From NCBI GenBank assembly GCA_902777385.1, contig CACYTP010000017.1:1-60708 (forward strand): 60,708 nt of DNA, read 5' to 3'. Positions 3,799 to 57,157 of this stretch are shown here, piece after piece. This DNA comes from an uncultured bacterium (lineage in GTDB: Bacteria > Cyanobacteriota > Vampirovibrionia > Gastranaerophilales > Gastranaerophilaceae). The notes beneath the pieces are model-generated. The model worked only from the letters and a program-made list of their open reading frames with translations, was not told where the DNA came from and did no database searches. How positions within the stretch are numbered: the first letter of the stretch is position 1; every line of letters begins with the position of its first letter. Both the position numbers and the translations under genes were made by a program.

Positions 3799-3839
3799 AA
3801 AGTTTTCCATGCTATTATACTTATTGTATGGAAAACTTT
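3799..3839 (+). promoter_or_regulatory. Leaderless-type promoter inside a 12-bp inverted repeat
   Basis: AAAGTTTTCCAT (3799-3810) and ATGGAAAACTTT (3828-3839) are perfect inverted repeats separated by 17 bases. Between them lies the -10 box TATACT (3816-3821), ending six bases before ATG3828; the second arm contains the start codon. It could be an operator or a terminator for the small upstream gene. No clear -35 box is visible. Confidence 0.5.
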
Positions 3840-4685
3840 TTGCTTGAAATCAGAAAATTTATTTTGTCAAAGGTATTACATAAGCATTATTATCGTACGG
3901 GAAAATGTAAAGCGTGCGGAAAATGTTGTACAAAAATTTATGTAAAACATTTCAAACATGTTATTCAGGACGAAGAAGAATTTAAAAAACTGCAATATCT
4001 GCACAGATTTTATACATACCTGAAAGTTATAGATAAAGATGAAACCGGATTGGTTTTTGAGTGTCAAAATCTTGATAAAGAAACTCATAAATGTAAAATT
4101 CATAAATCTCGTCCGGGTATATGCCGACGTTATCCGCAGGAAGAATTATTTTCTATGGGCGGGGCTTTGTCTGATGATTGCGGATATAAAATGCTCCCTA
4201 TTGTTCCTTTTGAAAAGGTTATGAAAAAATTATCCAAAAAGAAAAAAATTTTGATTTTATTGTTGTTATTTTTTGTAGGTTCGCAGGCATTTGCTTTTAA
4301 CGGATTTTCAGATGATTTTATCGAAAATTTTAAAACCTGTAATTTGTTTGCCGAAGAAAATTCCGTAAATAATAAAGGTACAGTTTTTAATGATATGAAA
4401 TTTTTTGCACCTAACGGAGATGGCAGGTGTTGCTATCATCAAATTATACAGTCGCAATATGGTACAATAAACCTGCATTGCAAATTCAATAATGAACAAG
4501 TCTCAAACTTATATAACACAATGCTTACAAATAATCCCCCGTATTTTTATAGTGCGGAAGCCGAAAATTTATGGAATAGTTATGTAAATGACGAAAACGT
4601 CTGTAAACTGGATATTCATACAATATGGGACTATAAAGCTCTCGTTCCTGACAGATACCTTCCGTGGAAACTGCCTCAGGAATAA
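3828..4685 (+). CDS. YkgJ-type cysteine-cluster domain fused to a secreted-type domain
   Basis: 285 residues in one frame with two unlike halves. Residues 1-125 carry the CxxCxxCC cluster (Cys27, 30, 33, 34) followed by Cys79, 89, 99 and 118 and RPGICRRYP, the pattern of YkgJ/UPF0153 metal-cluster proteins, which are cytoplasmic. Residues 132-156 then read as a signal peptide (MKKLSKKKK, a Leu-rich core, and SQAFA), followed by about 130 residues of unrecognised exported-type sequence with several Cys. An ATG at 4221 could start the second half as its own gene, but its ribosome site (AAAAGG) is too close. Either a real fusion, a membrane-spanning protein, or two genes joined by loss of a stop. 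Confidence 0.75.
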   Translation: MENFLLEIRKFILSKVLHKHYYRTGKCKACGKCCTKIYVKHFKHVIQDEEEFKKLQYLHRFYTYLKVIDKDETGLVFECQNLDKETHKCKIHKSRPGICRRYPQEELFSMGGALSDDCGYKMLPIVPFEKVMKKLSKKKKILILLLLFFVGSQAFAFNGFSDDFIENFKTCNLFAEENSVNNKGTVFNDMKFFAPNGDGRCCYHQIIQSQYGTINLHCKFNNEQVSNLYNTMLTNNPPYFYSAEAENLWNSYVNDENVCKLDIHTIWDYKALVPDRYLPWKLPQE

Positions 4686-7210: not shown

Positions 7211-7239
7211 TTGCCAAAATCGCTTGATTATCGTAAAAT
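7211..7239 (+). promoter_or_regulatory. Promoter of the 7246 gene, leaderless type
   Basis: TTGCCA (7211-7216), 17 bases, TAAAAT (7234-7239), then six bases to ATG7246. No Shine-Dalgarno sequence can fit between. Confidence 0.6.
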
Positions 7240-7245
7240 TATATT

Positions 7246-7446
7246 ATGTACAGATGTAAAGAATGTAACAAAATATATCCATCTAGGGTTCAATATTGTG
7301 AATGTGGCAGTAGTGAATTTGTAACAATTCAGCCGAAAAGTAAACAGCAGCCAAAGAAAGAATTAAAATTAGACTCAAATCAGATTATATCTTGGGGCAT
7401 ATTTGCCGTGTGTCTGATTGCTGCTGTTGTTATACTTTGCTTGTAA
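7246..7446 (+). CDS. Small zinc-ribbon protein with C-terminal membrane anchor
   Basis: 66 residues. The N-terminus has four cysteines in two pairs (YRCKECNK and QYCECGSSEF), typical of a zinc ribbon, then a Lys/Gln-rich linker and a single C-terminal hydrophobic segment (about residues 48-66), so the ribbon would face the cytoplasm on a tail-anchored protein. Function unknown. The promoter places the start codon at or next to the transcription start. The 3' end overlaps the convergent 7430-8026 gene by 17 bases. Confidence 0.7.
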   Translation: MYRCKECNKIYPSRVQYCECGSSEFVTIQPKSKQQPKKELKLDSNQIISWGIFAVCLIAAVVILCL

Positions 7447-11152: not shown

Positions 11153-11171
11153 CCGTTTTTTTCGTTATAAT
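11144..11171 (+). promoter_or_regulatory. Promoter of the chromate transporter pair, leaderless type
   Basis: TTGTTA (11144-11149), 16 bases, TATAAT (11166-11171), then six bases to ATG11178 with no ribosome site. It overlaps the end of the XRE gene. Confidence 0.55.
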
Positions 11172-11177
11172 AGAACT

Positions 11178-11726
11178 ATGCAAAAATCAGTTTGGAGTAT
11201 TTATAAAACCTTTTTTAAGATAGGAACATTCTTGCTCGGCGGCGGATATGTTATTTTGCCTCTATTGCAATCAGAAATAGTTGATAAAAAAGGTTGGGCA
11301 AATTCTGAAGATATTGTTGAGTATTTTGCATTATCTCAAAGTCTTCCGGGGATTATTGCGGCAAATATTTCCATATTTGTAGGACATAAATTGCTTGGTT
11401 TACGAGGAGCATTCGCTGCAGTTTGCGGAGTAATTACTCCTGCGTTTCTTGCAATTGTATTGATAGCAAATATTTTATCAGAGCTTGTTACAAAACATCT
11501 TGTTCAGGGGATTTTTGCAGGTGTAGGGGTTGGCGTTGTAGTACTTGTCCTTTTAACCATAAAAGAAATGTGGGGCAAAAGTATTGTTGATAAGTTTACT
11601 ACGGTTATTTTTATTGCGGCAATGGTTCTTGCTTGTCTGAAAATTTCGCCTGTGTGGATTATAATCGGAAGCGTAATTTGCGGCATATTGTACAGAATTT
11701 GCTGTCGTAAGGAGGCTGAAAAATGA
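11178..11726 (+). CDS. Chromate transporter family protein, first half (short CHR)
   Basis: 182 residues. It carries the CHR-family start FKIGTFLLGGGYVILPLL and LSQSLPGIIAANISIFVG, with about six membrane segments. Short CHR proteins work as pairs equivalent to one long ChrA, and export chromate or a related anion; the physiological substrate in an anaerobe is uncertain. Its stop overlaps the start of the second half by four bases (ATGA), indicating translational coupling. Confidence 0.88.
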   Translation: MQKSVWSIYKTFFKIGTFLLGGGYVILPLLQSEIVDKKGWANSEDIVEYFALSQSLPGIIAANISIFVGHKLLGLRGAFAAVCGVITPAFLAIVLIANILSELVTKHLVQGIFAGVGVGVVVLVLLTIKEMWGKSIVDKFTTVIFIAAMVLACLKISPVWIIIGSVICGILYRICCRKEAEK

Positions 11727-23680: not shown

Positions 23681-23709
23681 ATGCCACGTTTTTTTATTCG
23701 TGGTATATT
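23681..23709 (+). promoter_or_regulatory. nadK promoter region with inverted repeat, leaderless type
   Basis: TATATT (23704-23709) ends six bases before ATG23716. A weak -35 (ATGCCA) lies 17 bases upstream. CCACG and CGTGG (23684-23703) flank a T-rich loop in the spacer and could bind a regulator or terminate the pilin transcript. Confidence 0.45.
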
Positions 23710-23715
23710 TAGCGT

Positions 23716-24516
23716 ATGAGTCTGAATAATTTTGCAGTTGTATATAATAACAATATTTCACATTCAGTTGAGGTGAAGGATGCAGTAATTTCTGTTCTTG
23801 TCAAAAATAATGTCAAAGCGGAAGCACTTGATGTAGATAATTTGAAAAACGGTTTTGATTTTGTAATTGTTGTAGGCGGTGACGGGACTATACTCAAAAC
23901 TTCAAGATTTTATGCAAAATATAAAACTCCTATTTTTGGTATAAATCTTGGCAGATTAGGCTTTCTTTCTCAGTGTTCTGCCGAGAATATCACGCAGGCA
24001 ATAGAGAAAATACTTTCAGGAAATTACAAACTTGAAGATAGGATTATGCTTGAATTTGGTAATTATACGGCATTGAATGATTTTGTTATAAAAAGTTCAC
24101 TTTCCGGCAGGACTTCAAAGTTTTCGCTAAAAATTAATGATAAAAAGGTGTGTGATTACCTCGCAGATGGAATAATTATATCAACTCCTACCGGTTCTAC
24201 AGCTTATGGGCTGTCTGCAGGCGGTCCTGTTCTTGTTCCGTCACTTGATGCTTTTGTAATTGTTCCAATTTGCCCTCATACCCTTACTGCACGTCCTATT
24301 GTAGTTCCTGATACGGAAAAGATTACTATTTGCGGTTTGGAGAATGAGTCTACATACTTCTTTTCGGCTGACGGACAGGAGTTTATGGAAGTGAATTCTG
24401 AAATTAATATTTCTAAGTCTAAATATTCCGTAAAACTGGCACTGCTGAACGGAAACGAGTTTTATTCCGTGTTAAGAAATAAGCTGCACTGGGGTATTCC
24501 GCCTGCTAAAATATAG
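23716..24516 (+). CDS. nadK: NAD kinase
   Basis: 266 residues. It phosphorylates NAD to NADP. Signature motifs: VVGGDGTIL (GGDGT at 54-58), FGINLGRLGFLS (about 75-86), the region LNDFVIKSS (where many family members have NE), and STPTGSTAYGLSAGGP (about 155-170). No Shine-Dalgarno is present; the -10 box six bases upstream suggests a leaderless transcript. Confidence 0.95.
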   Translation: MSLNNFAVVYNNNISHSVEVKDAVISVLVKNNVKAEALDVDNLKNGFDFVIVVGGDGTILKTSRFYAKYKTPIFGINLGRLGFLSQCSAENITQAIEKILSGNYKLEDRIMLEFGNYTALNDFVIKSSLSGRTSKFSLKINDKKVCDYLADGIIISTPTGSTAYGLSAGGPVLVPSLDAFVIVPICPHTLTARPIVVPDTEKITICGLENESTYFFSADGQEFMEVNSEINISKSKYSVKLALLNGNEFYSVLRNKLHWGIPPAKI

Positions 24517-27372: not shown

Positions 27373-27607
27373 TTTGTTTGTTCTCCTTCTTTATAACTTT
27401 GTCAGATTTGTAATCCGACCTACAATTAAGCATACTTTCATGTTCAGAATATAACAAACATAAAGTAGTTACAAGTACAGGATTAATCTTTTTGCTTGTT
27501 ATGAAATAAATCTGTAAACATTTATTAAAATAGTATATATAATTTGCAAAAAATTTGTTTCAGCTGTTATAATCTGTCTAAGTGTAGTTTATTAATGAGG
27601 GGTATGT

Positions 27608-32036: not shown

Positions 32037-32065
32037 TTGACAATTTTTTTTAATCTGTCTATAAT
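32037..32065 (+). promoter_or_regulatory. Consensus sigma70 promoter of hisS, leaderless type
   Basis: TTGACA (32037-32042), 17 bases, TATAAT (32060-32065), six bases, ATG32072. A perfect consensus promoter that leaves no room for a Shine-Dalgarno sequence. Confidence 0.8.
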
Positions 32066-32071
32066 TTTCGT

Positions 32072-33307
32072 ATGGCTAAAATTATAAATGTAATTAAGGG
32101 AACGAAAGATATATTACCTCAAGATGTCGGTGAATGGCACAGATTGGAAGAAACAGCATTAAAAGTTTTTTCAAAATACGGATATCAGGAAATAAGAACA
32201 CCTATTTTTGAGGCTACTGAACTTTTTGCCCGTGGGGTTGGTGATACTACTGATATTGTTAACAAAGAAATGTACACTTTTGAAAAAAGTGAACGTTCTC
32301 TTACGTTAAGACCGGAAAATACCGCAGGGGTTGTTCGTTCATTTATTGAAAACGGAATGTCAAGATTGTCTGCACCTGTCAAATTATGGTATAAAGGTCC
32401 TATGTTCAGATATGAACGACCTCAGGCAGGTCGTCAACGTCAGTTTCATCAGGTCGGGGTAGAAATGTTTGGTATCAAACAGCCGGCTGCAGATGCTGAA
32501 GTTATATTATTGGCTATAAATTATTTGAAGGCTTTAGGGTTGAATGATTTGGAAGTAGAATTGAATTCTTTGGGTTGCCCTAAATGCAGAGAAGAATATA
32601 AGGCTAAAATTAAAGAAGTTTTGAAGCCTGAATTTAATAATTTGTGCGAAGATTGTCAAACAAGATATGAAAAAAATCCGTTGAGATTGCTGGATTGCAA
32701 GGTCGAATCCTGTCAGGCAATATTCAGTAAGCCGGAAATAAAAGAAGTTATATTTTCTGATTTCTTGTGTGAAGAATGTGCGGAACATTATTCACAATTA
32801 AAAGAGTATTTAGATAAAGCTAAAGTAAAATATACGGAAAATAAACTTTTGGTTAGAGGATTAGACTATTATAACAGAACTGTTTTTGAAATTAAATCAA
32901 ACGATTTAGGTTCTCAAAACGCCGTATGTGGCGGCGGCAGATATGACAGTCTGGTTAAAAATCTCGGGGGAGAAGATACTCCTGCTATTGGGTTTGCAAT
33001 GGGAATGGAAAGATTAAACGCTCTTTTACCTAAAGTTGAACCAAAACTATTAGACGGATATATTGTTTCAAATTCTCCGGTTGAGGCTTTTGCTTTGGCT
33101 GAGGAGTTAAGGGCTGCAGGTAAAAATGTTGAATTTGATTTGGCAAATAAAAAGTTTACAAAACAATTGGAAAAAGCATCAAAAGTTGCTCGTTATGCTT
33201 TAATCCTTGGTGAAGATGAAATCAAAGAAAATGCAGTATCTGTAAAAAATCTTGAAACATCTGAGCAAATAAAAGTTTCGAGAGAAAATGTTTCTGAAAT
33301 GGTGTAA
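32072..33307 (+). CDS. hisS: Histidyl-tRNA synthetase
   Basis: 411 residues. Class II synthetase charging tRNA-His. Motif 1 and entry: IRTPIFEATELFARGVGDTTD; motif 2: MFRYERPQAGRQRQFHQVG; histidine-specific VRGLDYYNRTVFE; motif 3: GFAMGMERL. The insertion has paired Cys (GCPKCREEY, CEDCQTRY), normal for bacterial HisRS. The start codon is six bases after a perfect -10 box, so the mRNA is probably leaderless. Heads a likely operon with three downstream genes. Confidence 0.97.
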   Translation: MAKIINVIKGTKDILPQDVGEWHRLEETALKVFSKYGYQEIRTPIFEATELFARGVGDTTDIVNKEMYTFEKSERSLTLRPENTAGVVRSFIENGMSRLSAPVKLWYKGPMFRYERPQAGRQRQFHQVGVEMFGIKQPAADAEVILLAINYLKALGLNDLEVELNSLGCPKCREEYKAKIKEVLKPEFNNLCEDCQTRYEKNPLRLLDCKVESCQAIFSKPEIKEVIFSDFLCEECAEHYSQLKEYLDKAKVKYTENKLLVRGLDYYNRTVFEIKSNDLGSQNAVCGGGRYDSLVKNLGGEDTPAIGFAMGMERLNALLPKVEPKLLDGYIVSNSPVEAFALAEELRAAGKNVEFDLANKKFTKQLEKASKVARYALILGEDEIKENAVSVKNLETSEQIKVSRENVSEMV

Positions 33308-56156: not shown

Positions 56157-56185
56157 TTGCGTCACCGTGTTTTTTCTGATAATAT
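56157..56185 (+). promoter_or_regulatory. Promoter of nrnA, leaderless type
   Basis: TTGCGT (56157-56162), 17 bases, TAATAT (56180-56185), six bases, ATG56192. It begins next to the start of the divergent DUF721 gene. Confidence 0.55.
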
Positions 56186-56191
56186 TAAGGA

Positions 56192-57157
56192 ATGGATTGT
56201 CAGCAATTAGATAATATCATAAAATCGTCAAAAAATATATTAATTATTTCACACATAAATCCCGACGGGGATACATTAGGCAGCATGTGCGGATTATATT
56301 CTGCAATATATGATAATTTCAAGAAAAAAGCGGATATGCTTTTGATGTCAAAATTGCCTGCTATATATACATTTTTACCTGATATTGAATTGGCAAAACA
56401 TATAAGTAATTACGACTTGTCAAGAGAATATGACTTGGTTATTAATGTCGATGTAGCATCATACGACAGAATGTTTGACTCAAGGACTTTGTATGATAAA
56501 GCAAAGTACAAGGTAAATATTGATCATCATATAACAAATGATAACTACGCTGATTTAAATATTGTATGTCCGGATGCAAGCTCAACAGGTGAAGTTTTAC
56601 TCGATATAATGGAAGCATTAAATTGGAAAATAAGTCTGAATACCGCAAAGAGTTTATACACGGCGATATTAACAGATACAGGCTCTTTCAAGTATAATAA
56701 TACAACTCAAAAGGCTCTTAATTCTGCCGCAAAATTAGCCGGAGCAGGTGTTATTCCTTCCGAAATATATAAGTATTGTTATGAGTCAAATTCAAGAGAA
56801 CATGTACAATTTCAGGCACATTGTATTAGTAATGCCGTATTTTCTGAGGATAATAAGATTGCATACATTATTGTCTACAAAAAAGATATGGAAAGATATA
56901 ACGTGGCAGAGGATTGTACGGAGGGTTTAACAGAAAAATTACGGGCAATAAAATCCGTTGAAGTTGCGTTTATTGCTAAGCAGCTTGGGGCTTCATTATC
57001 CAAAATTTCAATGAGAAGTGAATCTGCGGATATTTCTTCTGTATGTGCAAAATTTGATGGCGGCGGACATAAATTAGCGGCAGGATGTATGATAAAATGT
57101 TCTGTGGAGGATGCCGCAAGAAGAGTTTATGAAGAGGTTAAGAAGTTAAAGCTATGA
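56192..57157 (+). CDS. nrnA: DHH phosphoesterase, NrnA-type
   Basis: 321 residues. DHH domain: SHINPDGDTLGSMCGLYSAI (about 20-39), VDVASYDRM, NIDHHITNDN (the DHH, about 110), ILTDTGSFKYNN (about 155), and DHHA1 at the C-terminus with FDGGGHKLAAGCMI. NrnA degrades short RNA and pAp, and relatives cleave cyclic dinucleotide products such as pGpG. No separated ribosome site is present. Overlaps yihY by four bases. Confidence 0.92.
   Translation: MDCQQLDNIIKSSKNILIISHINPDGDTLGSMCGLYSAIYDNFKKKADMLLMSKLPAIYTFLPDIELAKHISNYDLSREYDLVINVDVASYDRMFDSRTLYDKAKYKVNIDHHITNDNYADLNIVCPDASSTGEVLLDIMEALNWKISLNTAKSLYTAILTDTGSFKYNNTTQKALNSAAKLAGAGVIPSEIYKYCYESNSREHVQFQAHCISNAVFSEDNKIAYIIVYKKDMERYNVAEDCTEGLTEKLRAIKSVEVAFIAKQLGASLSKISMRSESADISSVCAKFDGGGHKLAAGCMIKCSVEDAARRVYEEVKKLKL

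Follow-up and report, generated by a model that had tools for sequence, protein, structure and literature searches.

Promoter-like elements just before start codons in the window

The hisS gene examined here is preceded by a -10 hexamer that ends six bases before its ATG (spacing N6), and the first-pass annotation had proposed that six genes with this layout form a leaderless class in the window, namely the whole 60,708-nucleotide stretch of DNA analysed. The question is whether this arrangement marks a real class of genes and, if so, how such genes would be transcribed and translated. As contig 17, the window comes from a Candidatus Gastranaerophilales MAG (Melainabacteria/Vampirovibrionia; 2.32 Mb, 34.6% GC), which belongs to a lineage of non-photosynthetic gut bacteria related to cyanobacteria. 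In Candidatus Gastranaerophilales and Melainabacteria MAGs, a large number of which come from animal guts, hisS shows 74-93% identity to that of the window. We consider it highly probable that the elements are sigma-70-type promoters with the -10 ending six bases before ATG, from which a leaderless mRNA would start at the A of ATG.

All six hexamer-N6-ATG arrangements, as well as three -35 hexamers at 17 bp, were present in the sequence where the annotation had placed them (Table 1).

Table 1 Promoter-like elements upstream of the six window genes (positions in the window).
Gene	Element	Strand	Layout	Evidence
hisS	32037..32074	+	-35 TTGACA 32037-32042, 17 bp spacer, -10 TATAAT 32060-32065, 6 bp, ATG 32072 (inferred +1)	sequence; conserved in about 60 species
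nadK	23701..23718	+	extended -10 TGG-TATATT (TATATT 23704-23709), 6 bp, ATG 23716	sequence; relatives
nrnA-like	56177..56194	+	TTGCGT 56157-56162, extended -10 TGA-TAATAT (TAATAT 56180-56185), 6 bp TAAGGA, ATG 56192	sequence; relatives
chromate-transporter subunit gene	11166..11180	+	-10 TATAAT 11166-11171, 6 bp, ATG 11178	sequence; relatives
short ORF at 7246	7211..7248	+	-35 TTGCCA 7211-7216, -10 TAAAAT 7234-7239, 6 bp, ATG	sequence; relative L244
CxxCxxCC-domain gene at 3828	3810..3830	+	TATACT 3816-3821 at N6 overlaps TGC-TATTAT (TATTAT 3813-3818) at N9	sequence; L184

The six elements differed in how well they were kept among relatives. For nadK, most relatives of the family have a -10 at N6, or in some cases at N7, and TGn frequently accompanies it. 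For the nrnA-like gene, whose product is a DHH/DHHA1 phosphoesterase, TGnTAnnnT-N6-ATG was kept in most closer relatives, whose discriminators are purine-rich and lack the usual T at -1. In roughly half of its relatives, the chromate-transporter gene had the box at N6 or N7; in the others it adjoined the upstream gene directly. The layout of the short ORF at 7246, for which no Pfam match was obtained, was matched only in one relative of the same genus (L244), other relatives being different. The proposed six-gene membership holds in part: the class itself is real, as described below, but the 7246 layout is confined to its own genus, 11178 is less conserved, and 3828 is doubtful. Likewise, of the three -35 boxes described as clear, that of hisS is conserved, whereas the TTGCGT of the nrnA-like gene was not conserved among the relatives compared.

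At 3828, TATACT at N6 was rejected as the likely promoter box, the overlapping TGC-TATTAT at N9 being likelier and shared by the window and L184, a relative of the same genus. More distant relatives have their start 2-3 codons downstream of this ATG, with a -10 at N6 relative to that start. The gene would have a leader of 0-3 nt and was not counted as a clear N6 gene. Its product (window 3828-4685) is 285 aa long, as is that of one same-genus relative; most family relatives match it over the first ~140 residues only, and the remaining half is similar to short ORFs that stand separately elsewhere. It may have arisen by fusion of two proteins.

Promoters at N6 exceed chance at ATG gene starts

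The spacing between promoters and starts was examined in the window and 40 stretches of 20 kb (861 kb in total, 577 genes called). A stringent promoter had to have a well-scored -10 accompanied either by TGn or by a -35 mismatched at no more than two positions, and spacings 2-5 and 7-12 were used for comparison with N6. Among the 552 genes with ATG starts, 33 had a stringent promoter at N6, whereas the mean for the neighbouring spacings was 3.2, an approximately ten-fold excess. The -10-like box that characterizes bacterial leaderless (TA-led) genes, some 10-12 bp ahead of the start codon, is present here at a fixed spacing above chance. The excess amounts to 30-37 of the 552 genes (about 5-7%), from which we estimate 80-150 leaderless-type genes genome-wide, or ~5-7% of genes. 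A minor excess was also seen at N7 in the sample.

The peak was confined to ATG gene starts. Under the stringent scoring of the sample, N6 was not favoured at GTG/TTG starts (4/448), and no N6 peak was observed at 27,462 non-start ATGs (72 versus about 70). Furthermore, independent loci from the family showed the peak again (13/235 genes; 23/304 with hisS excluded), their neighbouring spacings mostly having 0-9 genes, and it was absent among 57 genes examined from other families.

The stringency of the -10 was decisive for detecting the peak. An earlier loose threshold let in almost any TANNNT and blurred the peak, and was superseded by the stringent scoring. Genome-wide, the enrichment of TANNNT-N6-ATG that the first-pass annotation had put forward as a check did not materialize (2192 versus 2162 for the reversed pattern). 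This loose test is flat since TANNNT is frequent and only a minority of ATGs are starts; the signal therefore requires a good -10 in combination with genuine gene starts. The exact TATAAT-N6-ATG was found 163 times in the whole genome, versus 82 for TATAAT-N8-ATG.

The start choice within the gene calls is a prediction, and the N6 ATGs might not be true starts, the promoters instead feeding leadered mRNAs with an SD-led start codon downstream. Single cases of this kind are possible, as at 3828, where the start of the relatives lies 2-3 codons downstream. However, misassigned starts would not fix the -10 to an in-frame ATG at one-base precision, and the hisS ATG lies within a few codons of the SD-led hisS start in sister lineages. 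We thus regard general misassignment as improbable.

Features of the N6 genes

The N6 genes carry further marks of promoters. TG one base before the -10 was observed in 30 of the 83 genes in the loose N6 set versus 22/469 elsewhere. T occurred at -1 in 67% of this set versus 47% elsewhere, forming a pyrimidine-purine initiator. From -18 to -4 relative to ATG, an SD core was found in none of 43 stringent members versus 337 of 487 other genes, a contrast that is partly built in because the -10 occupies the SD site. In the nrnA-like gene, one of the six described as lacking an SD, AAGGA abuts the ATG and so lies nearer to it than a normal SD would. Most of the remaining genes have SD leaders; the claim that all other confident starts have purine-rich sites was nevertheless too strong, the SD core being present in 69% of other first ATGs in the sample and window starts such as 2235, 38224, and 38706 having no purine-rich site.

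AT-rich upstream signals of translation are known in Bacteroidetes and others (PMC3160421, PMC5397173), and the hexamer could be read as such an element (an S1-binding or AU-rich site) of SD-less leadered starts. The one-base-exact spacing, a TGn positioned as in an extended -10, and the hisS TTGACA 16-17 bp upstream are instead promoter features, and this reading is very improbable.

Many of the members are genes of core biosynthesis, replication, and translation. Besides hisS, nadK, and nrnA in the window, they include ribE, hemW, proB, mutS2, dxr, metF, folK, dnaG, gmk, purD-like, panE-like, kdsA, purB, era, hom, aroK-like, and dnaE. Close packing (≤25 nt) behind a co-directional gene was rare (3% of members versus 25%).

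Leaderless initiation would explain jointly the sharp N6 peak, the TGn offset, the absence of SD, and T at -1, all of which, together with the hisS conservation described below, support the interpretation given by the first-pass annotation. Since the -10 ends six bases before the start codon, we infer that RNA polymerase would initiate at the A of ATG to give an mRNA without a 5' leader; T at -1 indirectly favours a transcript start in or very near the start codon. Such an mRNA would be unable to make the Shine-Dalgarno contact, and its 5'-terminal AUG may be recognised by 70S ribosomes, by analogy with studied leaderless mRNAs (PMC9031893).

Comparison with known leaderless systems

Across bacteria, leaderless genes have been described that carry a TANNNT box some 12 bp upstream (PMC3160421), and GeneMarkS-2 placed leaderless genes in 21.6% of bacterial species, as quoted in PMC9581028. 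In Deinococcus-Thermus, about 30% of ORFs are leaderless with a -10 motif beside the ORF (PMC12340547). The genes described here resemble these in having the -10 ~12 bp before the start codon and, by prediction, no or a very short leader, alongside SD-led genes (PMC12340547; PMC3160421), but they represent only about 5-7% of genes and carry a fuller TATAAT, often with TGn, instead of TANNNT, in a low-GC genome. As in Actinobacteria such as mycobacteria (PMC4633059, PMC3898074), transcripts would start at the start codon without an SD. Leaderless starts in E. coli prefer AUG, whereas Actinobacteria tolerate GUG and use it efficiently (PMC9031893); the restriction of N6 to ATG in this genome fits the E. 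coli preference rather than the actinobacterial tolerance.

Within the phylum, few leaderless transcripts (19 gTSSs) have been reported in Synechococcus elongatus UTEX 2973 (PMC6091082), and Zheng et al. state that many genomes of cyanobacteria rely neither on SD-led nor on leaderless genes (PMC3160421). Leaderless transcripts do occur in the phylum, but those of Synechococcus are few and not described as a conserved class. No relevant work on leaderless genes or promoters in gut bacteria or Melainabacteria, and no paper linking leaderless genes to Melainabacteria/Vampirovibrio-type names, was found in a search that reached only a minority of subscription papers; genomes of this kind may be present, unnamed, in large surveys such as GeneMarkS-2. 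Gastranaerophilaceae would be a new lineage using a known leaderless mode, with an informative evolutionary pattern. An uncultured cyanobacterial relative from animal guts would join the regular leaderless users, in a phylum thought to have few, and the N6 geometry provides a usable start-codon rule for Gastranaerophilaceae genomes.

Conservation of the hisS layout and its distribution

The -35/-10/N6/ATG geometry of hisS was kept in about 60 species. The leaderless label, which itself requires T-12, A-11, and T-7, was given to 62 hisS genes. Beyond the label, A-8 was fixed in these genes, T-10 and A-9 were each present in at least 90%, and T-1 in 61/62; a TTGACA-like -35 (at most one mismatch, 16-17 bp spacing) was found in 52. 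The remaining spacer and positions -6 to -3 were variable. In hisS, nadK, and nrnA alike, the geometry stays constant while the intervening bases drift. Coincidence in an AT-rich genome, with which the unenriched loose TANNNT-N6-ATG and the low-stringency count (83 genes at N6 versus 60 in shuffles) would agree, is refuted for the class by the ten-fold stringent excess, its absence at other spacings and ATGs, and this cross-species conservation; it has a negligible probability overall, though it may hold for single genes.

The hisS genes of the window's family are leaderless except for a 15-member clade and L005, L051, L059, and L078, which have spacings of N7-N9 or an unclear upstream region and count as leadered under the strict label. 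The hisS of L005 has its box at N7 which, with the N7 excess in the sample, suggests that some leaders are 1 nt long. The 15-member clade (L058, L061-L063, L065, L066, L069, L071-L074, L076, L077, L081, and L082) is preceded by a short leader in which an AAAGGA-type SD is present. It may represent either a reversion from the leaderless state or a retained ancestral leader, the hisS tree being compatible with both. In families f2-f7 of the same order, which fall outside the window's family in this tree, hisS is leadered and usually preceded by a clear SD, and the leaderless label requires at least four changes on the tree. Because hisS is SD-led in sister families as well as in one subclade of the family, it offers a natural system for leadered/leaderless switching.

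The TATAAT N6/N8 ratio was 2.1 in the family, 0.75-0.94 in f2-f5, 1.2 in f6, 1.65 in f7, and 1.7-2.1 in f9 and f14, where f7, f9, and f14 rest on small counts and the sums of f1 and f8 come from partial sets. N6 thus exceeds N8 also in f7, f9, and f14 of the same class, suggesting that these may be separate leaderless lineages. By these ratios across the families of the class, leaderless use would have been gained or lost more than once.

Bacteria in general tend to lose leaderless genes. A tentative and rather unlikely extension of our interpretation is that leaderless initiation spread within Gastranaerophilaceae from SD-led ancestors and became fixed for a core housekeeping set, which would form a translationally co-regulated group answering to the state of the ribosome (e.g. 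70S pools or initiation-factor levels).

Two records whose hisS falls inside Gastranaerophilales are titled Fusobacterium sp. CAG:439 (L016, FR900466.1) and uncultured Acinetobacter sp. (L074, CAMZGT010000009.1); judging from these hisS placements, both titles look mislabelled.
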